A stretch of DNA of 64,000 nt from Ferrimonas futtsuensis DSM 18154 (GTDB taxonomy: Bacteria; Pseudomonadota; Gammaproteobacteria; Enterobacterales; Shewanellaceae): positions 1 to 64,000 of the forward strand of contig NZ_AUGL01000008.1 of NCBI RefSeq assembly GCF_000422645.1, in the 5' to 3' direction. The notes beneath the pieces were generated by a model. That model worked only from the letters and a program-made list of their open reading frames with translations. It did not search any database and was not told the origin of the DNA. The position numbers and the translations under genes are program-made. Positions 2,192 through 23,975 of the stretch are shown piece after piece (positions within the stretch are counted from its first letter, which is position 1; every line of letters begins with the position of its first letter).

Positions 2192-4147
2192 TTACAGCTT
2201 ATAGTTGACGGACAACATCACCATGTGGGCGTTGTAGTCACTGTTGAGATCACCCAGGGTCACCAGATTGGGCAGGGTATCCTGCTCAATGGCGGCGTAG
2301 TCCGCGTCCTCGTAGCGCTCGTAGCGGTAGTCCAGCCTCAGGGAGAGGGCAGTGTTCACCGCGTAGGTGCCGTAGAGGTTCAGGTTGTAGCTGGTGGCGA
2401 AGTAGCCGTCGTACTCACTGAAGCCTGAGGTGGTGTCGCTGTTGGAGTCGGCGTAGACATAGTCGCCGCCCAGTACCAGCTTCTCTGCCATCAGGCCGCT
2501 GTAGGTGAAGCCCAGGCCGAAGTGCTCAAACTCATCCTCAACTTTGGCATCCCAGCTGGCGGGACCGGACACCGAGCCGGACTGCTCGGAGAAGATCCAC
2601 TGTTTGCCGAAGAACAGGTGAGTGTTGAAACGCTCGGTGTGCTGGAACGCCAGGGTGGCGTCAAAGCCATAATCCTCGGCTTCGGTCAGGCCCACTTCGG
2701 ACTTGTCGTAGTCATCCAGGGCGTAGTAGCCGCTGAAGTCTACGGTCAAACGGTCCAGAGGGGTGTGGCTGACGCGCAGTTCCACTTCGCTGCGATCCCG
2801 GTCCGCCACGTTGTAGCGGCGCATCAGGTCGTTGTTGTCGCCGGTGACGCGGTAGGTGGAACCGTCGCGGCTGGAGAAGCCACCCTTCAGGGCGATGTCC
2901 CAGGCGTCGAAGGCGGTCACACGAACACGACCCCAGACGGCATCGTCGGTGGTGTCTTCACGATCCTGGGCGCTGCGGGTTACCTCCTTGCGGTCGTAAC
3001 CCAGATCCACCCGGTAGCCGCGGGCGATGCGGTAGCTTGCACCCAGCTTGTAGGTGGTGCGATCCACGTCGTAGGCCTGGTACTCGGCGGCGTCGCCGGA
3101 GTTGGGATCCAGAGCCAGTTCGGTCACCAGGATGTCAGAGGAGTTGTCACGCTCGCTGTAGTCCACGGAGGCGGTCAGGCGCAGGGCGTTGGTCGCCATG
3201 GAGGTCAGCTTCAGGTTGGCATCCAGAGTCTCGATCTTGCCGTCGAAACCGGCGATGCCGTTGTTGACCACCAGCAGGTCCTGATCCTGAGTCATCTCAC
3301 CAGAGGCGACGCGGCCAGAAACCTGGGTGCGGCCAAAGCTGTAGAAGCCATTGGCCATCACCTGGTAGGCGTCGTTGTCCGGGGCATCCTGATAGGCACC
3401 CTGAACCGCGCCAAATTTCAGCACGTCCACCTTGTTGTCGTAACTGGAGGCCAGGTAAGCCAGCTGGGTAAACCACTGCTCACCCTGCAGCTTGACCCCG
3501 GCTTCCCAGGTGTCGGTGCTGCTGTCTACCGGCTTGGCGACGTTGGTGGGGGTTCCACCCCAGATGGAGGCTTTCTGGAGGCCGCTCTTATCTTCGCGAC
3601 GGAAGTTGGCATAGGTCTGCCACATCTCGCCACCGAAGCTCAACTCGGCACCATAGCGCTCGCGCTCGGTTTCCAGAGTCTGCTCCTGCAGATCGCCTGC
3701 GACCCAGGTGTTGCCAACGACGGAGTAGTTGGACTGGGCGTGGTCGTTCTTCACGGTCACCAGTTTGCCGTACTCTACCGCCACGTTCCAGGTGTCGCCG
3801 TGACCGGCAGCCAGGCGGGCTTCGCCATTGTCCATGCCCAGGTTACGGGCTTCCAGTGAAGCGCCATAGCCGGACTCTGAGGTGTATTTCAGGTCAGAGT
3901 TAAAGGCACCGAAGGCGCCGTCTTCTGCCCCGAAGTAGTTGGCAGAGCGCTCGTTCTCACTGTCCACCGCACCGGCGGCGACGCCAACACTGCCCTGAGC
4001 ACCGTACTCGACGACGCAACGCTTACAGGACCATTTGTCGGTGTTGACCTTGTCCAGGTTGGCTTCCTGGATACTGTAACCACCCGCCATTGCCATGCCG
4101 GAAACGCCGGCCAGGGCCAGGGTGATCAGGTTATATCTGAATCTCAT
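2192..4147 (-). CDS. mtrB: MtrB-type outer membrane beta-barrel of the decaheme conduit
   Basis: MtrB is the outer-membrane porin that sheathes the decaheme MtrA and lets electrons cross the outer membrane to MtrC. This 651-residue protein has a signal peptide (cleavage near Ala21, MAMA-GG), then the CKRC pair at Cys41/Cys44 that is diagnostic for MtrB. The rest is a long run of alternating amphipathic strands rich in Asp, Tyr and Ser, ending in VMLSVNYKL as outer-membrane barrels do. It is slightly shorter than Shewanella MtrB (about 697). It is the last gene of mtrC-mtrA-mtrB, 12 bp after mtrA, and is followed by a strong terminator. A DmsF-type role is the main alternative, but the neighbouring mtrC favours metal reduction. 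Confidence 0.92.
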   Translation of the reverse strand: MRFRYNLITLALAGVSGMAMAGGYSIQEANLDKVNTDKWSCKRCVVEYGAQGSVGVAAGAVDSENERSANYFGAEDGAFGAFNSDLKYTSESGYGASLEARNLGMDNGEARLAAGHGDTWNVAVEYGKLVTVKNDHAQSNYSVVGNTWVAGDLQEQTLETERERYGAELSFGGEMWQTYANFRREDKSGLQKASIWGGTPTNVAKPVDSSTDTWEAGVKLQGEQWFTQLAYLASSYDNKVDVLKFGAVQGAYQDAPDNDAYQVMANGFYSFGRTQVSGRVASGEMTQDQDLLVVNNGIAGFDGKIETLDANLKLTSMATNALRLTASVDYSERDNSSDILVTELALDPNSGDAAEYQAYDVDRTTYKLGASYRIARGYRVDLGYDRKEVTRSAQDREDTTDDAVWGRVRVTAFDAWDIALKGGFSSRDGSTYRVTGDNNDLMRRYNVADRDRSEVELRVSHTPLDRLTVDFSGYYALDDYDKSEVGLTEAEDYGFDATLAFQHTERFNTHLFFGKQWIFSEQSGSVSGPASWDAKVEDEFEHFGLGFTYSGLMAEKLVLGGDYVYADSNSDTTSGFSEYDGYFATSYNLNLYGTYAVNTALSLRLDYRYERYEDADYAAIEQDTLPNLVTLGDLNSDYNAHMVMLSVNYKL

Positions 4148-4159
4148 GCTTCCCTCTCC

Positions 4160-5101
4160 TTAGCGCTGCAGCGCTTTGCCGGCAGGGTGGTTAGACCCGT
4201 GAATCTGGCTGTGGCAGTTCAAACAGCTTTGACCGGAGGTAAACACGCTGGGCTTACCGTTGATGCTGTTGCCACTGTGAGGGTTGGTGTGACACTGCTG
4301 ACAGAGCTGAGGAGCACGGTTGGTCAGCATGCCTTCATTAACACTGCCGTGAGGGTTGTGACACAGAGAGCAATCCTCGGTCACAGGAGCGTGCTCCCAC
4401 AGGAAAGGGCCGCGCTTCTCGGCGTGACACTGGTAGCAGTTGTCGTTGACAGAGACCTGGTTCAGAGCCGCTTCGGACATGGAACCGTGCGGATTGTGAC
4501 AGTCGGTGCAGCTCATGTCCGCCCACTTCAGTGGGTGAGAGGAGCGCTTGTTCATGTCCGCTTTCTGACGGCTGTGGCAAGCGGTGCAGGTGTCCACTTC
4601 GGTATGACGATCCAGGATGGGATCCTTGTCGGTGTGTACCTTGTGGCAGGAGGCGCAGGCGACCTCTTCCAGGTTGTGGGTGGAGGAGTGCCAGGCCATG
4701 CGTTCGCCATCCTGGTGACAGGAGAGGCAGACGCTGTTCTGTTTGGCTGCAGGGATGGGGGCGTCGGCACCGAACTGGATCATCGGCTCCTTACCACCTT
4801 TGTTGTGTTTGCCCTGGGGACCGTGACAGGCTTCGCACTGCAGGCCGGCCATCGGGCTCTTGCTGCTGTTGGTGCTGCCGTGAACGCCGTCGAAGATCGC
4901 CATCACCTGGTCACTCTTCTTGTGGCACATCAGACAGCCGTCGGCGCCCTTCTTGGAGTATTTACCCTCGGCAAACTTGGTGTCCAGGATCTGCTCCACT
5001 TCCGCGTCGGGCATCTTGTCCCAGGGCGCGGCGGTTGCACCCAGACCGGTGAGCAGGGCGAGGCCGGCTACCAGGGGGGTTAACCATTTCATCTGTTTCA
5101 T
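4160..5101 (-). CDS. mtrA: MtrA/DmsE-family periplasmic decaheme cytochrome c
   Basis: A 313-residue protein with an N-terminal signal peptide ([13 protein letters not shown]) and exactly ten CXXCH heme sites: CLMCH, CEACH, CLSCH, CASCH, CTACH, CTDCH, CYQCH, CSLCH, CQQCH and CLNCH. MtrA sits inside the MtrB barrel and carries electrons from periplasmic cytochromes to MtrC outside. Its length and heme count match the family (Shewanella MtrA about 333). The gene is between mtrC and mtrB in the standard order. A hairpin at 5131-5150 lies just upstream, between mtrC and mtrA, and may set the relative amounts of the two messages. Confidence 0.93.
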
Positions 5102-5157: not shown

Positions 5158-7152
5158 TTAGAACTTGACGTTGCCGTGGTTCACCACTTCGGGAGCGTGG
5201 CAGACCAGGCAGTTCTCAGCGGACACGGCCAGCTGGGCATCCGCCTTCTCACCGTTGTATACGCCGTTGCCGAAGGTGCCGCCGGTCATGTGGCTGATGG
5301 CGCCCTCATAATCGTGACAGCTGGCGCAGGTGGCGGTGATCGGGGTGCCGTAGCGGGCGTCGGCGGGGTTGAAGCCGCTGCCGCCATCAACGATGCCGGT
5401 GTTGATCACGTCCTTCTTCTTGAAGGAGTCCAGGTTGAAGCTGGTGTGGCACTGGGCACAGTCACCAACGATGGCCTTGCCTTTGTGGGTCACGTGCAGC
5501 TTCTGCTCGAAGGCGCCCTGGTTGGCGTAGGAGTAGGTGCCTTCAGGGGTGTGGCAGCTTACACAACCGTCCAGGCCTTCAACAAGGTCACCCATGACGA
5601 AACCAGGGTGGTGGGTACCTTTGTGAATCTGGAAGTTCTCGTTGTGGCAGCCTTCACACTTGGCGAAGTCCAGGGAGTCGGTGTGACGCATGGAGGCAGC
5701 CTCACCGGACTTGGTGACGAAGGCCAGGTTGGCTTTCATACCAGTGAAGTTCTCATCCAGAGAGTGTCCAGTGTCGTCCAGAGGCAGGCCTTCACAGCTG
5801 ATGATCTGGCCATCTTTGGAGCAGGCGGAGAGACCAACAAAGGTAAAGGCGGTGTCAGCGTCGCCGCTGCCGAACGCCAAGGTTCCGGTGTTGGCAACAA
5901 TGCTGCCCTCAACAATGGTGGCGCCATTGGCCAGTTCACCCTGTTCAACCGCATTAAAGCCACTCTTCTGGCCGTAGCCCAGAACTGGGAAGTTGGGGCC
6001 GATGTTGGTGGTCAGTTCCAGGCGCTCGATGCTGGTCAGCACTTCGGAGGCATCCAGTTTGGTGCCTGCGGAGTCCAGGATGGAGACGGTAACGTTGACG
6101 CTGTCGTCTGCAGCCACGTAGCTCATCTGAACATCGGTGCCCCACTGGGCAATCACCTTGGCGGCGTCGTTCCACTCACCCAGGTGGGCGTCGATGGTGC
6201 CGGCCACTACGCCGGTGCCTTCTGCGGTATGGCAGGTGGCACAGGTGGAGCTGTCAGGCTGCTCGGTGATGTGAGCATTATTGGTGTGGCAGCTGGAGCA
6301 GGTCTCTTTGGTGGGGACCATGGACCAGTTGCCCCATTCGGTCAGGGCCAGGTCGGCCTCTGGCTCGGAGGTCAGGTGACAGACGTTACAGGCGGCGCGG
6401 TCGGTGGGGTATTCACCGGCTTCGGCGGCAACCTGGTGCACATCGTGAACCAGAACGGTCAGGCTGCGGCTGGTGCGGCCACCGTCTGCCTTCATGCCGT
6501 CGTGGCAGGTGGCACAGGTCTGTGGATTGGTGTAGCTGTGCTTAATCGCCATGCCTTCGCCGTGACAGGTGGCACAGGAGTCGATGGCTACGATGTTGCG
6601 GGTGTAGTCGGCGGCGGCGCCGGCTGCATTGTAATCAAAGGCCACTTCCGCTTGGGGAACTGTAGTGGTGCCGTCTACCAGAGTGCCGGCAGGAACGATC
6701 ACGTTCAGGCGGCGAGTAAAGTCAGGATCCAGCTGAGCCTTTTCCAGGGCGGAGAAGGTGACGCTGTAGTAGCCGTTCTTCTCGTCGACGATCTCGGCAG
6801 CACCGTACTTGCTGTCGTGACCGGCAACCTGCCACATGGTGCTGTCACCAACGGTCTTGTGACCGGCGGGCAGCAGCTGAGCTACGTTGATCTTCATGCC
6901 CTGCAGACCGACAACGGACTCATCCTCTTCGTTGGTGGCCAGCACCTTGAAGACAGGAAGGCCATTGTCGAAGCTGACTTCGGTAACGGACAGGTTCAGT
7001 TGGTTGACTTCGGTGGCTGGCTCACCGCCGGGACGACCGGGGTTGCCATCATTGCCATCATTACCGTCGGAGCCGCCACAGGCGGACAGCGCTGCACTGA
7101 CTACCGCTGCGGTAGCCATCAGGCGCCAGTTGGGGGTTTTCATCATCATCAT
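5158..7152 (-). CDS. mtrC: MtrC/OmcA-family outer-membrane decaheme lipoprotein (MtrC-like)
   Basis: This extracellular electron-transfer cytochrome should accept electrons from MtrA/MtrB and pass them to minerals, electrodes or shuttles. It has a lipoprotein signal ending in LSACGG, then a Gly-X-Y tract (G-SD-G-ND-G-ND-G-NP-G-RP-G), beta-rich domains, and two groups of five CXXCH sites: CATCH, CATCH, CNVCH, CSSCH, CATCH, then CEGCH, CVSCH, CAQCH, CASCH, CLVCH. At 664 residues it matches Shewanella MtrC (about 671). I start at ATG 7152, giving MMMMK, because AGGG is then about eight bases upstream; ATG 7158 is too close to it. It is the first gene of the mtrCAB operon. Paralogous to the next gene upstream. 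Confidence 0.92.
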   Translation of the reverse strand: MMMMKTPNWRLMATAAVVSAALSACGGSDGNDGNDGNPGRPGGEPATEVNQLNLSVTEVSFDNGLPVFKVLATNEEDESVVGLQGMKINVAQLLPAGHKTVGDSTMWQVAGHDSKYGAAEIVDEKNGYYSVTFSALEKAQLDPDFTRRLNVIVPAGTLVDGTTTVPQAEVAFDYNAAGAAADYTRNIVAIDSCATCHGEGMAIKHSYTNPQTCATCHDGMKADGGRTSRSLTVLVHDVHQVAAEAGEYPTDRAACNVCHLTSEPEADLALTEWGNWSMVPTKETCSSCHTNNAHITEQPDSSTCATCHTAEGTGVVAGTIDAHLGEWNDAAKVIAQWGTDVQMSYVAADDSVNVTVSILDSAGTKLDASEVLTSIERLELTTNIGPNFPVLGYGQKSGFNAVEQGELANGATIVEGSIVANTGTLAFGSGDADTAFTFVGLSACSKDGQIISCEGLPLDDTGHSLDENFTGMKANLAFVTKSGEAASMRHTDSLDFAKCEGCHNENFQIHKGTHHPGFVMGDLVEGLDGCVSCHTPEGTYSYANQGAFEQKLHVTHKGKAIVGDCAQCHTSFNLDSFKKKDVINTGIVDGGSGFNPADARYGTPITATCASCHDYEGAISHMTGGTFGNGVYNGEKADAQLAVSAENCLVCHAPEVVNHGNVKF

Positions 7153-7216
7153 TATCATTTCCCTGCTTTTGGAGATGGTTTTTTGTTAACCACCTTACCA
7201 AGTGACGCTTACTGCC

Positions 7217-7600: not shown

Positions 7601-9838
7601 TTAGTGGCTGGAGCTCCAGTTGGCGTGAGCTTCCAGGACCTGGCTGTCGCTGTGACAGGTAGAGCAGGTCTCTTCAACCTGAGCTGGGTAGCTGCTGGAT
7701 GGCACGCCGATGGTATTGATGTCACCGTCGTGGTCAATCACGCCGCCCATCGCCTTGATGTGAGCCACGGTGGAGTCGCTCAGGCCGTATGGAGGCAGGT
7801 GACAGCTCACGCAGGCCGCGGTCTGCGGCGACACCAGCAGTTGCTCGTTGGTGGCCGGGTCGAAGCGGCCGCCGTCGGTGGTTCCGAACGCTACTGGTGC
7901 AGCACTGGCGGGGATCAGGCTCAGGGAGAAGCCGGAGTCACCGTGACAGGTGGCACAGTCGGTCTTCTTGAAGAAGCCGCCGATGTAGTGCTTGCTGTGT
8001 ACGATGTATGCCAGGTTGGAGGACCCGGTGCCCTTCTTGTCACGAGTGCCGTTGTGACAGGTGGCGCAGCCATCCATGTCGTTGGTGTAACGGTGCTTGA
8101 TGGCGGTGGTGTGACAATCCTGACAGGCGGTCATCTCGGCATGCTGGATGCGCGGGGTGTCGGCCACGGCAGCGCCGTCCTGCTGGAAGTAGAAGGTGTC
8201 GCTCACCAGGTAGGGCGCTTCCTGTCCGTCCAGGTTGCCTTCCGCGTCGACCACACAGTCTTCACGCTTGCCCTTGCTGCCGAAGCAGACGTGGATCTGG
8301 CTGCTCAGGGCGATGGTGGCGCCGGCGTCGACCAGTTCTTTCACTGCAAAGTCCGCATCGCTGATGACTGACTGGATGCGACCGTCACCCAACTGAGTGA
8401 AGGTATCGAATCCGACCTTCTGGTAGTTCACCAGGAAGTCGTCACCCAGTACGCCGTTCAGCACGATGGCGCTGGTAAAGCCGCCGTACTTGTAGGGGCG
8501 CGGATCGATCTGGCTCAGAGGCACCATATCCTCACCATCCATGATCTTGAAGATGGTGGTAATGGAGGAGCCGTCGACGGCCACGGTCATGGAGTCAAAG
8601 CTTACCTTCAACTCGGTAGAGCGGGCGTTGGCGTTGGCGTCGTAGTGGGCCGCTTCGGCGCCACGGGCACCCTGACCATGACAGGAGACACAGTTCTGGT
8701 AGTTTTCACCGATCTGGCTGTTTTCCGCGTCCCAGTGCCAGCTGGGCACGCCGTACTGGCTGTCGTGACAGTTCAGACAGGTGGCGGTGTCCTTGTCGGC
8801 GGTCCAGGCATCCGCATTGGCCACAGCTTCATCAGCCTGGTGACAGGTCTGACAGTTGGCGGCGTTCTGAGGATAGAGGCCATCGTCGGCGAAGAAGGAG
8901 TGGCTGTGGAACTCGTGGGCGATGCCCTTGATGGAGCCATCGTGCTTGCCGATGACATTGCCGTCATCGTCTTTGGTCTGGTACTCGTTGAACTCCACGT
9001 GACAGAAGGTACAGGAGTCCATCAGGGTGTGTTTGCCCGGGTGGTGCATGTTACCCAGGTTGCCGTCATGACCGGGGCGGTGACAGCTTTCACAGGTCTC
9101 ATTGGCAATCACGTGCTTGGGACGTTCTGCTACTGTGTCGGCGCTGGGCAGCCAGTAGTAGAAGCCGGCAGTGTTGAGATAGTCACCATTAGGCAGGTGG
9201 ATCTCGCTGGCGTCGTCGTTACGTACCTTGATGGCCATGTAGACACCATGGGTGACGTCGGTCTTGACGCTGTAGAGATCGTTGGTGTTGATGGCCACCT
9301 CGTAGGCGGAGCCGTCGGGCTTGGTGCCCTTGGTCACCAGGGTGTAGGTACCGTCGTTGTTGTCGGTCAGACAGTCGGTACAGTTCACATCACCACGATA
9401 GGAGAGTCCGGAGAAGTAACCGGACCCTGCGAACAGGGTTTCGCCGTCAAACTCACCCTTGGTCTTGGTGTAGTAGCTCAGCCACACATCGCGGGGCTCG
9501 CCCTCGATGTCGGTGGATCCGATCTCATCTTCGTTACCGATACGGCCCAGAGAGACACCGGCGATATCGATATCTTTCAAGCCGTAGAGGGCGACTCCGT
9601 TGGCGTCAGCCAAGGAGAAGTTAAGGGTCAGAATGCCGGCATCATCAAAGCTGGCACCTGTGATAGTGCTTACAACAGCGGAGGCGGAGGAGACAGGTTT
9701 GCCGACGGGGCCGGGCTGACCATCTTCACCATTGGATCCATCGGAACCGTCGCTGCCGCAACCACTCAGGGCTACGGCACCCAGGCCAGCAAAGGCCATG
9801 GCGCGCCATAGGGCGTTGGGTTTCATCATCATCATCAT
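7601..9838 (-). CDS. omcA: OmcA-like outer-membrane decaheme lipoprotein
   Basis: A second MtrC/OmcA-family cytochrome, 745 residues, close to Shewanella OmcA (about 735). It has lipobox LSGCGS, a collagen-like Gly-X-Y stretch of about seven triplets, and ten CXXCH sites: CESCH, CTFCH, CQTCH, CLNCH, CVSCH, then CQDCH, CATCH, CATCH, CVSCH, CSTCH. An extra CTDC pair without His occurs before the first heme group. The start at 9838 is the first of five tandem ATG codons, with AGGG about eight bases upstream; a longer reading frame up to 10057 has no signal peptide and was not used. Its own terminator separates it from mtrC, so it is a separate transcript. It probably acts as a terminal reductase at the cell surface. 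Confidence 0.9.
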   Translation of the reverse strand: MMMMMKPNALWRAMAFAGLGAVALSGCGSDGSDGSNGEDGQPGPVGKPVSSASAVVSTITGASFDDAGILTLNFSLADANGVALYGLKDIDIAGVSLGRIGNEDEIGSTDIEGEPRDVWLSYYTKTKGEFDGETLFAGSGYFSGLSYRGDVNCTDCLTDNNDGTYTLVTKGTKPDGSAYEVAINTNDLYSVKTDVTHGVYMAIKVRNDDASEIHLPNGDYLNTAGFYYWLPSADTVAERPKHVIANETCESCHRPGHDGNLGNMHHPGKHTLMDSCTFCHVEFNEYQTKDDDGNVIGKHDGSIKGIAHEFHSHSFFADDGLYPQNAANCQTCHQADEAVANADAWTADKDTATCLNCHDSQYGVPSWHWDAENSQIGENYQNCVSCHGQGARGAEAAHYDANANARSTELKVSFDSMTVAVDGSSITTIFKIMDGEDMVPLSQIDPRPYKYGGFTSAIVLNGVLGDDFLVNYQKVGFDTFTQLGDGRIQSVISDADFAVKELVDAGATIALSSQIHVCFGSKGKREDCVVDAEGNLDGQEAPYLVSDTFYFQQDGAAVADTPRIQHAEMTACQDCHTTAIKHRYTNDMDGCATCHNGTRDKKGTGSSNLAYIVHSKHYIGGFFKKTDCATCHGDSGFSLSLIPASAAPVAFGTTDGGRFDPATNEQLLVSPQTAACVSCHLPPYGLSDSTVAHIKAMGGVIDHDGDINTIGVPSSSYPAQVEETCSTCHSDSQVLEAHANWSSSH

Positions 9839-9937
9839 TACTTTTTCCCTGCAATGTTTAGGTTGTTCATGCATATACCTAAATTTGGGTATGCATAATG
9901 AACACCACGAAGATACCCCAGACTTCCAGTTACCCGT

Positions 9938-9953
9938 CGTGATCAACGTCAAC
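9938..9953. promoter_or_regulatory. Weak CRP/FNR-like site upstream of omcA
   Basis: CGTGATCAACGTCAAC. The core GTGAT-CAAC-GTCAA fits the FNR pattern at 8 of 10 positions and the CRP pattern at 7 of 10. It lies about 100 bp before omcA. Confidence 0.3.
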
Positions 9954-9954
9954 A

Positions 9955-9985
9955 ATTGCAAAAGTTTAAACTTGATATTGCAAAA
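9955..9985. repeat. Direct repeats ATTGCAAAA flanking a palindrome
   Basis: ATTGCAAAA occurs at 9955-9963 and again at 9977-9985, 22 bp apart. The palindrome AAGTTTAAACTT lies between, at 9962-9973. The spacing is about two helical turns, as expected for cooperative binding of a regulator. Confidence 0.4.
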
Positions 9986-10182
9986 ACAGTGAGTGCAGTT
10001 CAGTTCGCCGTCAGTAATGTTAAAAAATACTGACATTGAACCCGACTCATTCAACATTAGGTACTGATTTGAAAAAGATAAAGCCTAGGTCTGGTTTCGG
10101 TCGTGCCGAGCAGTTGGCGGCCGGTCCAAAAGATGACCGGGATCTCAGGCTGTGAGGCGAACGCTATTCCAGGTGGTTATTC

Positions 10183-15861: not shown

Positions 15862-15863
15862 AC

Positions 15864-15889: not shown

Positions 15890-15937
15890 CACCCAAAGAG
15901 TGATGGGCGCAACGTTTTCTGAATTGGGGTCGCCCCC

Positions 15938-15953
15938 TGTCAGCCCGCTGACA
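15938..15953. promoter_or_regulatory. CooA-type CO-regulator site upstream of cooM
   Basis: TGTCAGCCCGCTGACA is an inverted repeat with perfect TGTCA/TGACA arms that extends inward (AGC/GCT). A -10-like TAGAGT at 15975-15980 lies about 32 bp from its centre. cooM starts at 16014. This fits CooA activation from a site overlapping the -35 region. Confidence 0.85.
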
Positions 15954-16013
15954 GAAGGGGGGGCCGCCCGGGCCTAGAGTGGGCCTGACAACGACAACAA
16001 GATGAGGATGACC

Positions 16014-19000
16014 ATGGGAGAGTTTTCCATTCTGGCCTGGCTGGGTGCCGGGCTGCTGTTGCTCGGGGAGCTGTGGGCCCTGCGCAACCGAGCCAGCCTT
16101 GGCAGGCTGCTGCTCTACGCCACCGCCGCCGAGCTGGGCTACCTGATCATGGGCCTGGGGCTGGGCGAGCCCTTGGCGCAGACTGGCGCCTGGTTCCATC
16201 TGGCCCTGCAGGCGGTGATGCGACTGCTGGTGATCCTGGCGGCATGGCGGCTGATCCGCGCCGCCGGCAGCGACCGCCTGGACCGGGTGGCTGAGGTGGC
16301 GCCCCAGATGCCACTGAGCCGGCTGATGTTCGGCTTTGGGCTGTTCTCGGTGATGGGGCTCTCCCCCTTCAAGGGGGCTTTCAGCAAATTCATCATCCTG
16401 TACGCCGCCGTGGACCAGGGGCACTGGGCTCTGGCGGTGACCGCCACCCTGGCGGGGATAGTGGCGGCCATCTACACGCTGACGGTGATCCACAAAATCT
16501 GTTTCGGTGCGCCGGCCAGCCGTCCGGTGCTGAGCGAGGCGGGGCAGGGGGCGGCCAGTTTGTTGCTGATGCTGCTGGCGGCCCTGACTACGGTAGGGCT
16601 CAGCCTGGATCCCGAGCCGTTGCTGCACTGGGTGGGGGCCCTCAATGGCCTGACTGAGGGCCATGGCATGCCCAGGTTCGAGTCCCCCTGGCAGGCTCTG
16701 GTGCTGCTGCCCTACCTGAGTGGCTTCGGGGTGTTCCTGCTGGGGCACTTCAGCCCCAGATTGCGGGATCTGATGGTGCAGGCGGTGGCCGCCGTCACCC
16801 TGGTGATGGCCTGGCAGCTGCCCATGGCCGATGGCCTCTCCTGGCTGTTCGCCGTGATCATCGCCCTGGTGATGCTGGTGGTCTGCGTCTACTCCGGCCC
16901 CTATATGCGCAAAGACCCCAGGGCCAACCTCTACTACTTCTTCCTGCTGCTGATGCTCGGTTCCCTGCTGGGGGTGGTCACCGCAACGGATCTGGGTAAC
17001 TTCTACCTGTTCTGGGAGCTGATGACCTGGACCTCCTATCTGCTGGTGATCCACCCCCGCACACCCAAGGCTCTGCGGGCGGGACGTAAGTACTTTCTGA
17101 TGTGCGCCGGCGGCGCCTACATCATGCATTTCGGCATCCTGCTGCTGCACGCCAATCTGGGCAGTTTCGAATTTGCCCATCTTGCTGCGGCGGCCGGGCA
17201 GCTGCCCACCGGGGACGCTCTGGTGATCCTCGCCTGCTTCCTGGTAGGACTTGGGGTCAAGGCCGGGCTGTGGCCCGTCCATGGCTGGCTGCCGGATGCC
17301 CACCCTGTGGCGCCCTCCTCCATCTCCGCACCCATGTCAGCCATCCTCACCAAGGTGGGCCTGTACGGCATCCTGAAGCTGCTGTTTCTGGTGTTCGGGT
17401 CCGCCGCCCTATCGCGGTTGACGGGGGAGGGGGCCCTCTCCATCCCGCTGGTGATCACCCTGCTCGGCGCGGTGACCTTGATCTACGGCGAACTGGCGGC
17501 CCTGCGCGAGCCGGATCTCAAGCGGATGCTGGCGTTCTCCACCCTGGCCCAGGTGGGGGAGATCACCGCGGTACTGGGGCTGGGTAGCTATCTGGCCCTG
17601 GCCGCAGGCCTGGCCCATCTGGTGAATCACGCCATCTTCAAAAGCCTGCTGTTTCTCTGTGCCGGCTCCATCATCTACCGCTACGGCAGTAAGACCCTGA
17701 CCGAGCTGGCTGGCGCCGGACGACGGATGCCCATCACCGGCGTCTGTCTGGCCACCGGTTTGCTGGCGATCATGGGGCTTCCGCCATTCAGCGGTTTCTT
17801 CTCCAAGTACCTGATGATCTTTGCCGCCGTCGACCAGGGCAACCTGGTGCTGCCGGTGGTGATCCTGGTGGGCAGCCTGATAGGCGCTGTCTACTACCTG
17901 CGCATCTTCCGGGTGCTGTTCTTCACCCCGGCTCAGGGGCAGGCGACGGAAGCCCCTGTGGGGATGCTGTTGCCGCAACTGCTGCTGGCGGCTCTGGTGC
18001 TGGCGGCGGGGCTGTTTCCCAACGCGGTGCTGGGCCTGGTTCAGCCGGTGGTGGCACAGCTCTCCCCTGCGGGGGGCGAGCTTCCCTCTCTGGCACTGGA
18101 GTGGTCCTGGGCGGCCCTGGTGGCCTGCATCGGTGCCCCGACGGTGTATCTGCTGGGCAAGCGGGTGCCCGCCCTGGCGGTGCCTGTTGCCCTGACGGTG
18201 ATGGCGCTGTCTCTGATGCTGGTGCTGCAGCAATCCCAGCAGTTTGACCCGCTCTCCTGGTGGTTCGCCCTGCTGATCGCCGCCGTGGGACTGCTGAGCC
18301 TGGCCTACTCCAAGGGCTACATGGCCCACGGTCACAGCCTGCCCAGGTTCCTGATGTTCTTCCTGCTGATGATTGGCGGCCTGCTGGGGATCTGTGCCAG
18401 CCGCGATCTGTTCAACTTCTTCCTGTTCTGGGAGGTGATGAGCAGCTGGGCCCTGTACTTCGCCATCGTTCATGAGGAGAGCGACGATGCCCTGGACGAG
18501 GGGTTCAAGTACCTGATGTTCAATCTGGCCGGGGCCAGCTGCCTGTTCCTGGGAACAGTGATGCTGGCGGCCCCCTCAGGCGAGCTGGCGTTCGAGGGCC
18601 TGGGGCAGAGGCTGGAGGCGATGCCCCAGGCCTGGAGCGCATCGGCGCTGGTGCTGGTGCTGGCGGGGCTGCTGATGAAGGCTGCCCAGCTGCCACTGCG
18701 CATCGATGTACAGATGCACCCACCGACGGCGCCCACGCCGGTCAGTGGCTACATCTCGGCGGTTCTGCTGAAAAGCGGCCCCTTCGGCATGCTGAAATTC
18801 TTTGCAGCCATCGGCATCACCACCCTGGCGGCCCGCTTCGGCGAGGTTCAGGGGTTGCCCTGGCCCGCCTTCCTGGTGGCCCTGGTGGCGGTGTTGACCC
18901 TGCTGGGGGCCGGGGCGATGGCGATGATCCAGACCGGCATCAAGCGGCTGCTGATCTACAGCACCGTCAGCCAGCTGGCCTATGTGCTGCTGGGCCTGGC

Positions 19001-19763
19001 ACTGTTGACTCCCCTGGGTGTCAGCGCCGGCCTGCTGCATTTTGTGAACCACATGCTGCTGAAGAACCTGCTGTTTATGGGTGCCGGGGTGATTCTGGCC
19101 CAGGCGCACCTGCACAGCCTGGATGACCTGGGCGGGCTGGGACGACAGATGCCACTGACCTTCGGCCTGTTCCTGTTCGCCGGGCTTTCCCTGGCGGGGA
19201 TACCGCCGCTCAATGGCTTTGCTTCCAAGTGGCTTATCTACCAGGCCAGCCTGCAATCCGGCCACTACCTGTTTGCCCTGGCCACCCTGATGTCCAGCCT
19301 GTTCACCCTGGCGGCGGTGCTCAAGTTTGCCCATGTGGCCTTCCTCGGACGGCCTTCACCCAGACTGAGCCACCTGACCGACGCCCCGACCTCCATGGCC
19401 TGGCCCATGGTGCTGACCGCCGTTGCCTGTTTGGGGCTGGGTCTGTTCCCCGGCCTGGCGCTGGTGCCCATCGCCGTCATCGTCACCTCCCTGGGGATGA
19501 CTGCCCCAGAGGTGAGCCTGTGGGGGCCGCTGCCCGGTGGCTGGTCCTCCTGGCTGCTGACCCTGACTCTGCTGCTGCCGGCTTTGGCCTGCTGGGGGTT
19601 CTACCGCCTCAGTGCACCCCAGCGAGTGGCGATTCACCATCACGCCTGTGGGGTGGACGACCTGAGTGATGCCGACAGCCACATGGGCGCCGCCGCCCTT
19701 TACGAGTCCCCGAAGGCGCTGCTGCGCGTTCTGGCCAGCCCTTTTAAACGGAGAGAATCATGA
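16014..19763 (+). CDS. cooM: CooM, giant ion-translocating subunit of the CO-induced hydrogenase
   Basis: CooM is the large Mrp/NuoL-like membrane subunit that should pump ions as CooH makes H2. The 1249-residue chain is almost wholly transmembrane and contains a partial antiporter module (about 1-170, with SVMGLSPFKGAFSKF) followed by two complete ones. The first complete module has LFWELMTWTSY and KAGLWPVHGWLPDAHP; the second has LFWEVMSSWALY and KAAQLPLRIDVQMHPP. These carry the conserved Glu and Lys positions of the ion path. I start at ATG 16014 because GAGG lies six bases upstream; ATG 16002 has no ribosome site. It overlaps cooK by four bases. Similar fused CooM proteins are known from Rhodospirillum rubrum. 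Confidence 0.92.
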   Translation: MGEFSILAWLGAGLLLLGELWALRNRASLGRLLLYATAAELGYLIMGLGLGEPLAQTGAWFHLALQAVMRLLVILAAWRLIRAAGSDRLDRVAEVAPQMPLSRLMFGFGLFSVMGLSPFKGAFSKFIILYAAVDQGHWALAVTATLAGIVAAIYTLTVIHKICFGAPASRPVLSEAGQGAASLLLMLLAALTTVGLSLDPEPLLHWVGALNGLTEGHGMPRFESPWQALVLLPYLSGFGVFLLGHFSPRLRDLMVQAVAAVTLVMAWQLPMADGLSWLFAVIIALVMLVVCVYSGPYMRKDPRANLYYFFLLLMLGSLLGVVTATDLGNFYLFWELMTWTSYLLVIHPRTPKALRAGRKYFLMCAGGAYIMHFGILLLHANLGSFEFAHLAAAAGQLPTGDALVILACFLVGLGVKAGLWPVHGWLPDAHPVAPSSISAPMSAILTKVGLYGILKLLFLVFGSAALSRLTGEGALSIPLVITLLGAVTLIYGELAALREPDLKRMLAFSTLAQVGEITAVLGLGSYLALAAGLAHLVNHAIFKSLLFLCAGSIIYRYGSKTLTELAGAGRRMPITGVCLATGLLAIMGLPPFSGFFSKYLMIFAAVDQGNLVLPVVILVGSLIGAVYYLRIFRVLFFTPAQGQATEAPVGMLLPQLLLAALVLAAGLFPNAVLGLVQPVVAQLSPAGGELPSLALEWSWAALVACIGAPTVYLLGKRVPALAVPVALTVMALSLMLVLQQSQQFDPLSWWFALLIAAVGLLSLAYSKGYMAHGHSLPRFLMFFLLMIGGLLGICASRDLFNFFLFWEVMSSWALYFAIVHEESDDALDEGFKYLMFNLAGASCLFLGTVMLAAPSGELAFEGLGQRLEAMPQAWSASALVLVLAGLLMKAAQLPLRIDVQMHPPTAPTPVSGYISAVLLKSGPFGMLKFFAAIGITTLAARFGEVQGLPWPAFLVALVAVLTLLGAGAMAMIQTGIKRLLIYSTVSQLAYVLLGLALLTPLGVSAGLLHFVNHMLLKNLLFMGAGVILAQAHLHSLDDLGGLGRQMPLTFGLFLFAGLSLAGIPPLNGFASKWLIYQASLQSGHYLFALATLMSSLFTLAAVLKFAHVAFLGRPSPRLSHLTDAPTSMAWPMVLTAVACLGLGLFPGLALVPIAVIVTSLGMTAPEVSLWGPLPGGWSSWLLTLTLLLPALACWGFYRLSAPQRVAIHHHACGVDDLSDADSHMGAAALYESPKALLRVLASPFKRRES

Positions 19764-20728
19764 ATCAATTTGAGTCCCTGCTGATCCCCATCTGGGTGAT
19801 GGTGGTGGCGCTGTCTGGCCTGGCCATTGGACTGCTGGCCAAGGGGGCGGACCGCATCCTGCTGGCCCGGTTGCAGCGGCGCATAGGACCTCCGCTGCTG
19901 CAGCCCTTTTTTGACGTCGCCAAGTTGATGCGTAAGCACTCCATGGTGCCCGAGGGCAGTTTTGCCGCCCTGTTCCTCTACCTGCCTGCCGCCGGCGTCT
20001 GCGCCATGGCGGTGGCCCTGGCGCTGGTGCCTGTGCCCGGCTGGTATCAGCCGCCAGCCGCGCTGGGGGACATGTTGGTGCTGCTCTACCTGCTGGCGGT
20101 GCCTGCGGTGGTGATCATGCTCAGCGGCTCGGTCTCCGGTTCCACCTTCGGTGCCATCGGCTTCTCACGGGAGATGAGCATGATGCTGGCCTACGAGGGG
20201 CCGCTGTTGCTGGTGCTGCTGAGTGTGGCCATCCACGTCGGCGTTGCCCAGGGTGGGGTCATCTGCCTCAGCCTGACCGAGATCATCGCCTGGCAGCAGG
20301 TCAACGGCAGCCTGGTGACCAACCCCTGGCTGTGGCCGGCGCTGCTGGCGTTTCTCAGTGTCATCCCCGCCAACCTCGGGGTGCCGCCTTTCGATGTGCC
20401 TGAGGCGGAGTCTGAACTGCTCGAGGGGCCGCTGCTGGAGTACTCCGGGCCGGCCCTGGCGATGTTCAAGCTGATGTCCACCCTCAAGTCCGTGGTGGTG
20501 TTCAGTCTGGCGGTGGTGCTGTTCTGGCCCGGTGCCCTGAGCGGCATCGCCGCCCTGGCCGCCCACCTGCTCAAGTGCCTGGTGCTGTTCCTGCTGGCCA
20601 GGGCCCTGCTTCGGGCCTCGGTGGGGCGAATGCGCATCGACCAGGCGTTCCTGTTCTATTTCAAGTGGCCCGAGCTGCTCGGTGTACTGAGTCTGGCTCT
20701 GGTGCTGCTCGGCTCTCTAAGGGGGTAA
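19760..20728 (+). CDS. cooK: CooK, NuoH/HycD-type membrane subunit
   Basis: CooK anchors the hydrogenase peripheral arm to the membrane, the role of NuoH in complex I and HycD/HyfC in formate hydrogenlyases. The 322-residue protein has about eight hydrophobic segments. The family motif near the first loop is LQRRIGPPLLQPFFDVAKL. The acidic loop DVPEAESELLEGPLLEYSG corresponds to the conserved NuoH glutamates near the quinone-side chamber. It overlaps cooM by four bases and ends two bases before cooL. Confidence 0.93.
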   Translation: MNQFESLLIPIWVMVVALSGLAIGLLAKGADRILLARLQRRIGPPLLQPFFDVAKLMRKHSMVPEGSFAALFLYLPAAGVCAMAVALALVPVPGWYQPPAALGDMLVLLYLLAVPAVVIMLSGSVSGSTFGAIGFSREMSMMLAYEGPLLLVLLSVAIHVGVAQGGVICLSLTEIIAWQQVNGSLVTNPWLWPALLAFLSVIPANLGVPPFDVPEAESELLEGPLLEYSGPALAMFKLMSTLKSVVVFSLAVVLFWPGALSGIAALAAHLLKCLVLFLLARALLRASVGRMRIDQAFLFYFKWPELLGVLSLALVLLGSLRG

Positions 20729-20730
20729 TC

Positions 20731-21171
20731 ATGGCTCTGTTTTCCAACGTGGCGGCCCGCTCGCCCTGGCTGTACCGGATCAATGCCGGCTCCTGCAACG
20801 GCTGTGATGTGGAGCTGGCGACCACCGCCTGCATCCCCAGGTTCGATGTGGAGCGCCTCGGCTGCCAGTACTGCGGCAGTCCCAAGCACGCGGACATCGT
20901 GCTGATCACCGGGCCCCTCACCGCCCGGGTCAAAGAGAAGGTGCTCAGGGTGTATCAGGAGATCCCCGATCCCAAGGTGACGGTGGCAGTGGGGATCTGC
21001 CCCATCAGTGGCGGGGTGTTTCGCGACAGCTACGCCATCGAGGGACCCATCGACCGTTACTTCGATGTGGACGTGAACATCCCCGGCTGTCCACCCCGGC
21101 CCCAGGCGATCCTCGAGGGGGTGGCCCAGGCCATTGAGATCTGGAAACAGCGGCTGCAGGAGGCGTCATGA
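20731..21171 (+). CDS. cooL: CooL, [NiFe] hydrogenase small subunit (NuoB-like)
   Basis: CooL carries the proximal [4Fe-4S] cluster next to the [NiFe] site. The 146-residue form starts at ATG 20731; a longer reading frame back to 20575 overlaps cooK and was rejected. Cluster ligands Cys22 and Cys25 (SCNGCDVE), Cys90 (GICPISGG) and Cys120 (PGCPPRP) are all present. As in other group 4 hydrogenases it lacks the extra C-terminal cluster domain of periplasmic uptake enzymes. It overlaps cooX by four bases. Confidence 0.94.
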   Translation: MALFSNVAARSPWLYRINAGSCNGCDVELATTACIPRFDVERLGCQYCGSPKHADIVLITGPLTARVKEKVLRVYQEIPDPKVTVAVGICPISGGVFRDSYAIEGPIDRYFDVDVNIPGCPPRPQAILEGVAQAIEIWKQRLQEAS

Positions 21172-21680
21172 AGATACTGAAACTGCTTTGGCAGAACCTC
21201 AAGAAGGGGCCCTCTACCGATCCCTTCCCCTTCGGTGACACCTTTACCCCGAAAGGGCTGCGCGGACGCATCCGTTTCGACGCCAGCCGCTGCAGTGCCT
21301 GTCGCATGTGCGAACACGTCTGTGCCGGTGGGGCGATTCGTTTCGAGGAGACCGAGGAGGGCACCACCTTTACCGTCTGGCATAACAGCTGCACCTTCTG
21401 CGGCCTGTGCCAGCACTACTGCATTCCCGGGGCGATTCGGCTGACCGAGGACTGGCATCTGGCTCACCCTCAGTCGCAGAAATACACCATGGTGGAGCAC
21501 GACCTGATCCCCCTTCTGCCCTGTGGCGAGTGCGGCAGGAAGATCACCCGGACCACCACCAGCCTGCTGGGGCGGGCCTACGCCGGCAGCAACGGGGATA
21601 TCCGCACCCTGGCCACACTCTGCCCGGACTGCCGCCGCGCGCGCTCCGCCCAACAGCTCACCAAAGGAGAGATGCTATGA
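21168..21680 (+). CDS. cooX: CooX, 2x[4Fe-4S] ferredoxin subunit (NuoI/HycF-like)
   Basis: CooX relays electrons from CooF to CooL. The 170-residue protein has two [4Fe-4S] motifs, Cys42/45/48/52 (CSACRMCEHVC) and Cys75/78/81/85 (CTFCGLCQHYC). The C-terminal part adds two further Cys pairs, CGEC (119-122) and CPDC near 153, which look like a zinc ribbon, as also seen in some HycF/HyfH proteins. The gene overlaps cooL by four bases and its stop overlaps the cooU start by four. Confidence 0.92.
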   Translation: MKILKLLWQNLKKGPSTDPFPFGDTFTPKGLRGRIRFDASRCSACRMCEHVCAGGAIRFEETEEGTTFTVWHNSCTFCGLCQHYCIPGAIRLTEDWHLAHPQSQKYTMVEHDLIPLLPCGECGRKITRTTTSLLGRAYAGSNGDIRTLATLCPDCRRARSAQQLTKGEML

Positions 21681-22189
21681 ACCCGATGTTTCAACGCTTC
21701 GCCGCCAGCCTGGGGAATACCCTGGCGCAGCCGGCGTCCTGGAACCAGACCACGGACGCCAAAGGGGTCAGCGTTGCCTGGGCCAGGCTGGAGCAGGCGG
21801 AGCAGTTGCTGCCTTTCGCCCGGCTGGTGAAGGTGCTGGGGGGGCGGCTGAGCACCATCACTGCCTACCAGGTAGTGCCCAACCTGGAGATCGCCTATCA
21901 CTTCGACCTGGACGGCTCTACGGTGACCGCCACCGTGGTGCTGCCGGATCAGGGAGCAGTGATCCCCTCAATGACGCCGGTGTTCCTCAACGCCGACTGG
22001 AACGAGCGGGAGTTTGTGGAGCTGTACGACATTGAGGTGACCGGGCACCCCAATCCACGGCGGCTGTTTATCGATGAGAGCATCGACCCCGCCGTATTGC
22101 AGCGTTTTATTCCCTATTCGGATCTGGTGAACGCCGCCAGCACCAAGTCCCTGTGGGAGAAGATCATGAACAGTCGAGGAGAGATCTGA
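21677..22189 (+). CDS. cooU: CooU, NuoC-like subunit
   Basis: CooU corresponds to NuoC (30 kDa) and to the N-terminal part of HycE. It is a structural subunit that packs against CooH. The 170-residue form begins at ATG 21677, overlapping the cooX stop. The upstream extension to 21407 only shadows cooX. The conserved NuoC block is visible: PSMTPVFLNADWNEREFVELYDIEVTGHPNPRRL, in which WNEREFVELYDI is the family signature. It contains no metal ligands. The stop overlaps the cooH start by one base. Confidence 0.92.
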   Translation: MNPMFQRFAASLGNTLAQPASWNQTTDAKGVSVAWARLEQAEQLLPFARLVKVLGGRLSTITAYQVVPNLEIAYHFDLDGSTVTATVVLPDQGAVIPSMTPVFLNADWNEREFVELYDIEVTGHPNPRRLFIDESIDPAVLQRFIPYSDLVNAASTKSLWEKIMNSRGEI

Positions 22190-23271
22190 TGAGTGGATAC
22201 AAAGTCCCGGTGGGGCCGCTGCACGTGGCCCTGGAGGAGCCCATGTACTTCAAGGTGGAGGTGGAGGGGGAGACCATCCGTGACCTGGAGATCACCGCCG
22301 GCCATGTCCACCGGGGCCTGGAGTATCTGGCGGTCAAACGCAACTTCTACCAGAACATTACCCTGACCGAGCGGCTCTGCTCCCTGTGCTCCAACAGCCA
22401 CCCCACCACCTACTGCATGGCACTGGAGTCTCTGGCGGGCATCGAGGTGCCGCTGCGGGGCCAGTATCTGAGGGTGATCGCCGACGAGGTGAAGCGGGTG
22501 GCGTCCAACCTGTTCAACGTGGGGATCATGGCCCACATCATCGGCTTTGACTCGCTGTTCATGCATGTGCTGGAGACCCGGGAGGTGATGCAGGACGTCA
22601 AGGAGACCATCTACGGCAACCGCATGGACCTGGGGGCCAACTGCATCGGCGGCGTCAAGTACGACGTGGATGCCGGGCAAACCCAATGGTTGTTGCAGCA
22701 GATCGGCAGGCTGGTGCCGGCGGTGGAGGAGATTCGCGATCTCTACGGATCCAACCATTTCGTGTTGTCGCGCACTCAGGGGGTGGGACTGCTCACCCTG
22801 GAGGATGTGCAGCGTCATGGCCTGGTGGGGCCGGTGGCCAGGGGCTCGGGACTGGCGTACGATGTTCGTGTCCAGGCGCCCTATGCGGTCTACGATCAGC
22901 TGGATATCGAAATCCAGACCCGCACGGGGGGGGACGTCTGGTCCCGGGCCATGGTACGCCTGGATGAGGTGCTGGTGGCCCTGGACCTGATTCGTCAGTG
23001 CCTGGAACGGATGCCTGCCGGGCCCACCGCCATCAGTGGATTGCCGGTGATCCCAGCAGGAGAGGCGATCGCCAAGAGCGAAGCCCCCAGGGGGGAGCTG
23101 ATCTACTACCTCAAGACCGACGGTTCAGACCGGCCCGAGCGGCTGAAATGGCGGGTGCCGAGCTACCCGAACTGGGATGCCCTCAACACCATGATGACCG
23201 GCGAGAAGGTGGGGGATGTCCCGCTGATGGTCAACAGCATCGACCCCTGTATCTCCTGTACGGAAAGATAG
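22189..23271 (+). CDS. cooH: CooH, group 4 [NiFe] hydrogenase large subunit
   Basis: CooH holds the [NiFe] site and reduces protons with electrons from CO. The 360-residue protein has the proximal L1 motif RLCSLCSNSH (Cys64, Cys67, His71) and ends exactly at the L2 motif DPCISCTER (Cys354, Cys357). No residues follow the L2 motif, so no C-terminal peptide has to be clipped off; the same is known for R. rubrum CooH. The rest resembles NuoD. ATG 22189 overlaps the cooU stop, and the longer reading frame from 22153 was not used. Maturation still needs nickel from HypA/HypB and Fe(CN)2CO from hyp genes elsewhere. Confidence 0.95.
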   Translation: MSGYKVPVGPLHVALEEPMYFKVEVEGETIRDLEITAGHVHRGLEYLAVKRNFYQNITLTERLCSLCSNSHPTTYCMALESLAGIEVPLRGQYLRVIADEVKRVASNLFNVGIMAHIIGFDSLFMHVLETREVMQDVKETIYGNRMDLGANCIGGVKYDVDAGQTQWLLQQIGRLVPAVEEIRDLYGSNHFVLSRTQGVGLLTLEDVQRHGLVGPVARGSGLAYDVRVQAPYAVYDQLDIEIQTRTGGDVWSRAMVRLDEVLVALDLIRQCLERMPAGPTAISGLPVIPAGEAIAKSEAPRGELIYYLKTDGSDRPERLKWRVPSYPNWDALNTMMTGEKVGDVPLMVNSIDPCISCTER

Positions 23272-23306
23272 CCGGGGATCTCAACCCTATACAGAGGAAG
23301 GGCCGG

Positions 23307-23975
23307 ATGTACTCCAAGATGAAACTGTCCCGGTTCAATATGATTGAGCTGCTGAAAAAGCCCAAATATGAGGGGTTTCTTTCGGGTTTTCATTGTCGTC
23401 AGCTGGCGCGGGGTCGCCTGCTGGATCAGGCCTGCCACGAGGAAAGTGAGGTGTTTGTGCTGGTGTCCGGCCGGCTTCGGCTGTATCTCTCCTACGAAGG
23501 CAGGGAGTTCACCCTCTCCTTCCTGGAGCCGGGAGACATCTTCAGCACCCACAGCCGGATGCTGATTCAGGCGGCCCGGGAGAGCACCATACTGGCCATC
23601 AGTGTTTCTCGCTTTCGCCAGGAAGTGGTGCGTTTTCCGGAAGTCTCTCTGGTGATGACCGGCATCCTGGGGCAGGTGTTGGCCGGGACTCTCGACGTGA
23701 TTGAGGGGATCATCTTCCACGATGTGCAGTATCGGCTGGTGGAATTCCTGCTGGCTCTGGCGAAGGAGCGGGGCAGGGACACCCATGAGGGGGTCCTGTT
23801 TGAGTGTGACCTCAATATGGAGGAGATCTCCCTGCTTATCGGCACCACCCGTCAGACCGCCTCATCACTGCTCAACAATCTGATTAAGGAGGGGATGCTG
23901 GAACGCCGCAGCCGTCGTGAATTTGTGATACCGGATACGGAGGCCATGGAGACCCTGCTCAGTCAGCAGCCATAA
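23307..23975 (+). CDS. cooA: CooA, heme CO sensor of the CRP/FNR family
   Basis: CooA binds CO at a heme and activates the coo promoters. The 222-residue protein matches R. rubrum CooA in length. The N-terminal arm (MYSKMKLSRFN) would supply the N-terminal heme ligand. The other heme ligand, a histidine, is His82 in GDIFSTHSR. The Cys that ligates ferric heme in R. rubrum CooA is Ser80 here. The C-helix has the dimer and CO-pocket region (GILGQVLAGTLDVIEGIIF). The recognition helix is IGTTRQTASSLLNNL. Start 23307 has GAGGAAGGG upstream. It lies 35 bp after cooH, so CO may boost its own sensor by read-through. A terminator follows. Confidence 0.93.
   Translation: MYSKMKLSRFNMIELLKKPKYEGFLSGFHCRQLARGRLLDQACHEESEVFVLVSGRLRLYLSYEGREFTLSFLEPGDIFSTHSRMLIQAARESTILAISVSRFRQEVVRFPEVSLVMTGILGQVLAGTLDVIEGIIFHDVQYRLVEFLLALAKERGRDTHEGVLFECDLNMEEISLLIGTTRQTASSLLNNLIKEGMLERRSRREFVIPDTEAMETLLSQQP

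Follow-up and report, generated by a model that had tools for sequence, protein, structure and literature searches.

A predicted hydrogen-forming carbon monoxide cassette set beside the metal-reduction locus of Ferrimonas futtsuensis

Does a carbon monoxide (CO) oxidation system that lies directly beside a metal-reduction system hand its electrons to that neighbor? This question is raised by the first 64,000 nucleotides of contig NZ_AUGL01000008.1 of Ferrimonas futtsuensis DSM 18154 (the window), where a coo cluster starts 175 bp past cymA, itself divergent from omcA and mtrCAB. A preliminary description of this DNA took the arrangement to suggest a metal reducer that can also live on CO, and raised the possibility, marked there as inference, that electrons from CO enter the quinol pool and leave through CymA and Mtr. 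The genes it named are present, open and placed as it had said, and a metal reducer able to live on CO stands as a genetic potential. The claim of coupling is weakened by the comparisons given here, and adjacency alone does not support it. Judged from the sequences, the locus quite probably consists of two self-contained respiratory modules side by side, a self-regulated hydrogenogenic CO cassette sitting in an electron-export locus, with any flow from CO to minerals most likely passing through H2.

The insertion can be seen by comparing the window with two relatives. Homology to the coo-less Ferrimonas genome G008 breaks off near 10934 and picks up again at 24022, and homology to the coo genes of F. 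aestuarii, which are unlinked to mtr, runs from 10932 to 23935, inside cooA. The left insertion junction lies at 10932-10934, where the first homology stops and the second begins. Since the G008 site is empty and the two homologies meet on the left within a few bases, the stretch from about 10932 to 24021 is best read as an inserted cassette of roughly 13.1 kb, which entered a resident locus in the space that separates the cymA terminator from satP. The coo block has a G+C content of 0.64, whereas values of 0.555-0.585 are found elsewhere in the window (mtr, cymA, satP-glnS and the remainder). In F. kyonanensis and F. sediminum, the left intergenic stretch is too diverged for the position of the junction to be compared.

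The cassette holds a full set of genes for CO dehydrogenase (CODH) and an energy-converting hydrogenase (ECH), all on the plus strand (11038-23975), in the order hypA-cooFSC-orf84-hypB and then cooMKLXUH-cooA. Genes of the locus were called by translation and profile searches (NCBIfam, Pfam), counts of CxxCH motifs and comparisons with solved structures. The nickel chaperone gene hypA (11038-11376) and the nickel GTPase gene hypB (15127-15861) score above the cut-offs of TIGR00100 and TIGR00073, respectively. Next to hypA lies cooF (11391-11966), for an Fe-S electron carrier with matches to ferredoxin-type Fe-S families, which reaches 67-75% to the cooF of Photobacterium and enterobacterial loci (L004-L007, L025). 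The anaerobic Ni,Fe-CO dehydrogenase gene cooS (11966-13876) scores 767.5 bits with TIGR01702. Its product aligns with the Rhodospirillum rubrum CODH (1jqk, E 4.9e-285) from residue 9 to the end, with the metal-ligand residues conserved; what we take to be the C-cluster ligands, a His and five Cys, all align with 1jqk. The CODH maturation ATPase gene cooC (13920-14696) was assigned by its 61-62% match to the cooC at the same position in the five loci above, as its NCBIfam matches are to other P-loop ATPase families only, all under cut-off. Another Prismane match in the genome (L002), a 557-aa frame, is presumably a hybrid-cluster protein and not a second CODH, given its length.

The hydrogenase part was assigned by profile search and comprises cooM (16002-19763), for a large antiporter-type membrane subunit of 1253 aa, cooK (NuoH-like membrane subunit, 19760-20728), cooL (NuoB-like small subunit, 20725-21171), cooX (NuoI-like polyferredoxin, 21168-21680), cooU (NuoC-like subunit, 21677-22189, searched as the overlapping open reading frame (ORF) 21407-22189) and cooH (NiFe hydrogenase large subunit, 22189-23271). 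CooH resembles the large subunit of formate hydrogenlyase (FHL; 7z0s, E 1.8e-76) and retains the N-terminal and C-terminal CxxC pairs of the NiFe site, the protein stopping directly past the second pair. The last gene, cooA (23304-23975), would encode a CO-sensing activator of the CRP family, close to CooA-1 (2fmy, E 8.5e-50) and R. rubrum CooA (1ft9, E 6.7e-41). The aligned heme His is conserved, and the Cys found two residues before the His in solved CooAs is a Ser here. The sequence features of a hydrogenogenic CODH/ECH system are all found: the CooS ligands, CooF, all six of CooMKLXUH, the CooH cysteines, the CooA His and CooA boxes. Chance or misannotation can be ruled out, as every gene has an open frame and, with few exceptions, a score above or well within that of its family. 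The cluster looks functional and could on its own pass electrons from CO to protons: CooS would oxidize CO, CooF would carry the electrons to CooX, CooL and CooH for the reduction of protons to H2, and the membrane subunits CooM and CooK would pump ions.

Between cooC and hypB lies orf84 (14883-15137), for a small His/Glu-rich protein with no match in Pfam or NCBIfam and no clear one in the Protein Data Bank (PDB). The remaining four Ferrimonas coo clusters carry related ORFs, as does L007. Its place in the cluster is, we assume, that of cooT or cooJ, and a nickel protein is possible; the name CooJ was not adopted, as no solved relative turned up.

If CO and metal respiration were tied together, shared control might be looked for. 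The CooA consensus quoted in PMC6085454, a source drawn on in excerpt, is TGTCRNNNNNNYGACR, and the window holds two plus-strand sites that match it: TGTCA-N6-CGACA at 10960-10975, preceding hypA-cooFSC-hypB, and TGTCA-N6-TGACA at 15938-15953, preceding cooM. The box before hypA is also present in G012 (a further coo-bearing Ferrimonas), F. kyonanensis, F. sediminum and F. aestuarii, and the box before cooM in the first three of these; in F. aestuarii the strict pattern finds no box before cooM. None is found in the 40 kb scanned of coo-less G008, and the mtrC-cymA intergenic region of the window has none even with two mismatches. Genome-wide, F. futtsuensis has 16 consensus sites against 7 for a reversed control, and two of these are the coo boxes. 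A wider CooA regulon taking in cymA, mtr or a second hydrogenase was considered and set aside: 10 of the 14 remaining sites were inspected and all lie inside mechanically listed ORFs, one such internal site (C5:228258) being near a gene start. Sites inside the mtrC-type genes of F. kyonanensis and F. sediminum, found with the last base loosened to R, were taken as chance.

Between cymA and the cassette lies a predicted intrinsic terminator of cymA (10882-10907, plus strand), an 11-bp stem with a T tract and a fold z of -3.16. The 1.5 kb scanned contain 5 terminator-like sites, compared with 1.6 in shuffles, and this one has the longest stem. A similar stem and T run follows cymA, by eye, in G012, F. 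kyonanensis, F. sediminum and coo-less G008. From the sequence, both coo units would be under CooA and cymA under separate control; with no consensus box at cymA or mtr and a terminator in between, regulation shared by cymA/mtr and coo is not what is predicted. CooA would activate both coo units through their own two boxes and would not control cymA or mtr.

How the two systems are arranged in relatives bears on the same question. CooS of the window type (84-100% identity) occurs in five of the 14 Ferrimonas genomes; six others give weak local matches of 30-36% and three no match, and no coo cluster is present outside the five. In the family it is found in 6/152 genomes, the sixth being G465, probably a Shewanella, at 78%. 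An order-wide sample of 394 genomes gave 11 CooS matches, of which the 9 outside Ferrimonas are merely 34-35% identical. The order mtr-cymA-coo-satP-feo-glnS is shared by four genomes, and because it recurs identically in three further members of the genus (G012, F. kyonanensis and F. sediminum) the adjacency of cymA and coo is not chance. The locus continues without coo in G008 (mtr-cymA-satP-feo-glnS). In G002, G004 and G013, mtr is accompanied by a cymA-like gene and feoB, satP and coo being absent and more cymA-like genes following feoB, while G006 passes from mtr to feoB with no cymA-like gene between and no satP or coo. By position, mtrA, a cymA-like gene and feoB stand in a row in G003, G007 and G011, and in G010 the 20 kb surrounding mtr show no feoB.

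The two coo-bearing relatives in which the systems lie apart are F. aestuarii and G465. In the former, about 280 kb separate coo from mtr on a single contig, and a different contig carries satP-feo-glnS. The mtr, coo and satP-feo-glnS blocks of F. aestuarii (L161, L159-L160, L173) are thus separate, and, compared with the window cymA, its two cymA-like genes reach only 43% identity (the one at mtr) and 51% (the one after feoB). In G465, the full-length mtrA-like gene closest to coo is about 405 kb off, and a weak partial match of 33% lies some 290 kb away. The coo units of G465 (L230/L231) are divergent and separated by a gene for a 236-aa membrane protein (weak NicO match under cut-off), with CooA boxes on both sides. 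Among 80 loci compared with flanks of at most 10 kb, many of them shorter, Mtr proteins are found in those of F. kyonanensis and F. sediminum alone (L008, L068); other ORFs with at least three CxxCH motifs occur in L013, L015, L017, L020, L027 and L052. In the Geomonas loci (L013, L015, L017, L020), a five-CxxCH ORF lies several kb upstream of cooS on the same strand, and cooH-type genes are also present.

The preliminary description had asked for this comparison, naming loss of linkage in all close relatives as evidence against coupling. Such a general loss is not seen: coo stays beside mtr-cymA in four of the five coo-bearing Ferrimonas and is unlinked in one, and in G465. Retained linkage needs no functional reason, however, because the flanking region is syntenic among relatives anyway.

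Phylogeny can be used to ask whether the cassette and its neighborhood share a history. A tree of eight Coo proteins (cooM, cooA, hypA, hypB and orf84 were excluded from the coo trees) separates F. kyonanensis and F. sediminum from a group of F. aestuarii, F. futtsuensis and G012, with all seven inner branches starred. Grouping the four linked genomes without F. aestuarii is rejected by the approximately unbiased (AU) test (p 1.3e-6), and an 18-row tree agrees. For the flanks, 19 non-mtr genes were tried and 8 were kept, these being present in G008, F. kyonanensis, F. sediminum and F. aestuarii, as 11 had no match in at least one; the outgroups lack 4 of the 8. These markers reject F. aestuarii as sister of F. 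futtsuensis, G012 and G008 (AU test, p 0.002) and leave the outermost of the three lines unsettled. A two-gene tree puts F. aestuarii outside at 86%, and an mtrA-mtrB tree gives no decision. Path lengths for coo and flanks, respectively, are 0.033 and 0.043 between F. futtsuensis and G012, 0.36 and 0.27 to F. kyonanensis, and 0.15 and 0.39 to F. aestuarii. Because the coo and flank trees conflict, the cassette has moved horizontally between Ferrimonas lineages. Two coo types at one cymA-satP site may stand for two arrivals, or for one insertion followed by loss from G008 and a later replacement.

Several points weigh against a self-regulated cassette that moved into a resident locus. With two mismatches allowed, the window gives 50 CooA box matches against 54.8 expected in shuffles; matches alone are thus weak evidence and, these being at shuffle level, weight was placed only on consensus sites. 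Synonymous divergence between F. futtsuensis and F. kyonanensis is equal in coo and flanks (pS 0.557 and 0.570), which fits joint vertical descent of the pair. Third-position G+C varies by species, with values for glnS and cooS of 0.62 and 0.67 in F. aestuarii and 0.74 and 0.84 in F. futtsuensis, and because of this difference in composition the protein trees and AU tests were preferred, pS being given less weight and not regarded as a decisive clock. In addition, one cymA-satP site holds coo in both F. futtsuensis/G012 and F. kyonanensis/F. sediminum, although the coo lineages are, by path lengths, apparently older than the split of their hosts; two independent arrivals at one spot would suggest a hotspot or selection for the place. 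Lastly, F. kyonanensis and F. sediminum have a NapH-family, quinone-side protein within the coo cluster.

An insertion hotspot without function, in which the cymA-satP spacer takes cargo and coo is one such load, is possible but doubtful. Two coo lineages at one site that is vacant in G008 would fit it, as would the missing satP at the site in G002, G004, G006 and G013 and an IS1595 transposase gene (77-1024) at the opposite end of the mtr genes. However, the immediate neighbors of the junctions are cymA, hypA, cooA and satP, so that neither has an integrase or transposase gene, and a scan found no tRNA gene in positions 1-30000 of the window. Repeated arrival could also be a single insertion followed by replacement of the cassette through recombination.

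The NapH-family protein is one hint of direct coupling. It is a 404-aa membrane Fe-S protein encoded between hypB and the second CooA box in F. kyonanensis (L162:17948-19162) and F. sediminum (L165), with two Fer4_5 stretches, CX3CP motifs and a C-terminal Fer4; the nearest NCBIfam family is NapH, at 77.9 bits (cut-off 213), and the sole solved match is weak. Under direct coupling, CooF and a membrane Fe-S protein would pass electrons from CO to menaquinone without H2, CymA and Mtr would be their exit, and the neighborhood itself would be functional. This protein is the best candidate for such a CO-to-quinone step, and the linkage kept by most coo-bearing Ferrimonas goes with the idea. Geobacter sulfurreducens, like the organism proposed here a metal reducer that oxidizes CO, grows on CO with fumarate, apparently with no H2 intermediate (PMC4703632); its operon differs in being CooS-CooF-FNOR, with no ECH named in it in the excerpt of that paper.

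Other observations make direct coupling improbable. No direct quinone-reducing entry is recognized in the coo cluster of the window, and the NapH-like gene is not in the coo clusters of the window, G012 or F. aestuarii, nor in the other loci compared. Relatives elsewhere in the genome reach just 39-41% in F. futtsuensis and G012, and 58-68% in F. aestuarii (58%), G006, G010 and G013; in G013 the relative adjoins a flavoprotein gene, as it does by eye in G010, and therefore the family may serve other reductases. A complete ECH is also a ready electron sink. The adjacency, for its part, loses its value as a sign of coupling: coo can lie hundreds of kilobases from mtr-type genes (F. aestuarii, G465), cymA has its own terminator while consensus CooA boxes stand at the two coo units only, and the junction and trees point to a horizontally moving cassette in a resident locus. 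A further version of the idea, that the spacer after cymA was filled more than once by a CO cassette because of its quinone-Mtr outlet, and that the NapH-type protein of F. kyonanensis and F. sediminum passes CO electrons to menaquinone, CymA and minerals, is likewise unlikely. If it were true, the window species would hold an earlier or H2-mediated form of that coupling.

Under the preferred reading of two self-contained modules, CO electrons could still reach minerals through re-oxidation of H2, a route that appears possible and is independent of adjacency. All 14 genus genomes encode HypD and, away from coo, a NiFe hydrogenase large subunit of full length. In F. futtsuensis, the only genome inspected for this, the genes around this second NiFe hydrogenase encode a small subunit and a cytochrome b561-type subunit as well as HypD and a HypE-like protein, which suggests an uptake enzyme. 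The most likely path would run from H2 through this hydrogenase and its cytochrome b subunit to menaquinone, CymA and Mtr.

When would such a cassette be used? One proposal, compatible with the two-module reading and about as probable as its opposite, is that CODH/ECH clears trace CO and energizes the cells when Fe(III), nitrate and other acceptors are exhausted, the two modules working in alternation. In the Parageobacillus work, CODH/ECH yields H2 solely when other acceptors are absent (PMC13077300, in the part cited), and CooA senses CO at low redox potential, a property discussed for a CO-oxidizing Fe(III) reducer (PMC6085454). However, the Parageobacillus genomes are described in that part as lacking known CO regulators and belong to a different phylum, and the Ferrimonas case is one of analogy. 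In F. futtsuensis, coo would be used mainly when mineral acceptors are scarce.

The cassette can also be set against known systems. The coo loci of Photobacterium marinum, P. chitinilyticum, G465, Sodalis and Symbiopectobacterium have the same main gene set, with CooS 75-78% identical. Each unit is directly preceded by a CooA box in G465 and the two Photobacterium loci, and Sodalis has one ahead of cooM. The units are divergent in this group, whereas the five Ferrimonas clusters have them in head-to-tail orientation, cooA being the final gene; the flanks of L004-L007 and L025, taken to at most 10 kb, hold no Mtr match. With the coo systems of R. rubrum and Carboxydothermus/Carboxydocella, the window has CooS, CooF, CooMKLXUH, CooA and the box TGTCRN6YGACR in common (PMC6085454, excerpt). 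The C. islandicus (L024) and Carboxydocella (L027) loci show no Mtr match, L027 having two four-CxxCH ORFs. C. thermautotrophica 019 uses Fe(III) and protons in parallel during CO oxidation, with no CymA homologue reported in the passages available on it.

No paper on the coo-mtr adjacency was found among the open-licence papers listed in literature searches, while Ferrimonas coo clusters themselves have already been published. In the portion of PMC6687684 used here, F. futtsuensis, F. kyonanensis, F. sediminum, Shewanella sp. M2 and R106 and Photobacterium marinum are listed as CODH-ECH holders, CO growth is not reported, and sediment and clams are given as the sources of the coo-bearing Ferrimonas species named. 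The H2 potential of F. futtsuensis is given in the part seen of PMC8159138 as a matter of genomic analyses only. Excerpts of other papers place MtrCAB in every Ferrimonas assembly available to PMC8805035, treat mtrCAB and dmsEFAB in the genus (PMC9732548) and describe mtr genes adjoining cymA in F. balearica (PMC6295460), the same order being found in much of the genus. In the papers drawn on, the case of CO oxidation joined to mineral reduction is a thermophile, Carboxydocella, and Geobacter was grown on CO with fumarate; a metal reducer of the Mtr type that has CODH/ECH would usefully add to these. The relatives, with coo beside mtr, apart from it or absent, and with or without the NapH-like gene, offer a natural comparison for asking which of the two, H2 or the quinone pool, receives the electrons from CO.

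The resident locus would serve extracellular electron transfer and iron. Its minus-strand genes run from 10057 down to 2192 in the order omcA-like, mtrC, mtrA, mtrB. The surface decaheme cytochrome gene mtrC (5158-7158) has 10 CxxCH motifs and scores 240.6 bits with TIGR03507 (cut-off 209.3), its closest solved structures being MtrC (E 2.5e-136). The omcA-like gene (7601-10057), for another surface decaheme cytochrome with 10 CxxCH, scores 180 bits with the same family, under cut-off; OmcA (4lmh, E 2.1e-30) is its sole solved relative at E 1e-10, and its real start is probably downstream of the listed ATG. The periplasmic decaheme cytochrome gene mtrA (4160-5101) also has 10 CxxCH and scores 331.5 bits with TIGR03508, the DmsE-family decaheme profile (cut-off 192.2), and mtrB (2192-4147), for the outer-membrane beta-barrel of the conduit, scores 487.6 bits with TIGR03509 (cut-off 240). 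On the plus strand, cymA (10290-10862) would encode a NapC/NirT-type tetraheme quinol dehydrogenase with 4 CxxCH; it scores 172 bits with TIGR02161, under the cut-off of 310.6, and its product has no solved relative at E 1e-10, so that the assignment is helped by the mtr neighborhood in relatives. Two further cymA-related genes lie away from the mtr locus of this genome. To the right of coo follow satP/yaaH (24024-24626, minus strand, PF01184), the Fe(II) uptake genes feoA (25002-25232) and feoB (25233-27488), both on the plus strand, and glnS.

Some smaller observations concern the surroundings of these genes. The IS1595 transposase gene, near the contig start, has as neighbors a metallo-hydrolase gene and the end of the locus that carries mtrB; at the matching position, G008, G012, F. 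kyonanensis and F. sediminum have two hydrolase genes. A second FeoB, 87% identical, is found in F. futtsuensis (C9:10434-12677) and G012, while the remaining 12 Ferrimonas genomes have no second copy of comparable identity. F. futtsuensis also has extra mtrA-family genes on contigs C4 (64%) and C10 (59%), matching over most of the length, and weaker matches on C1 and C17.

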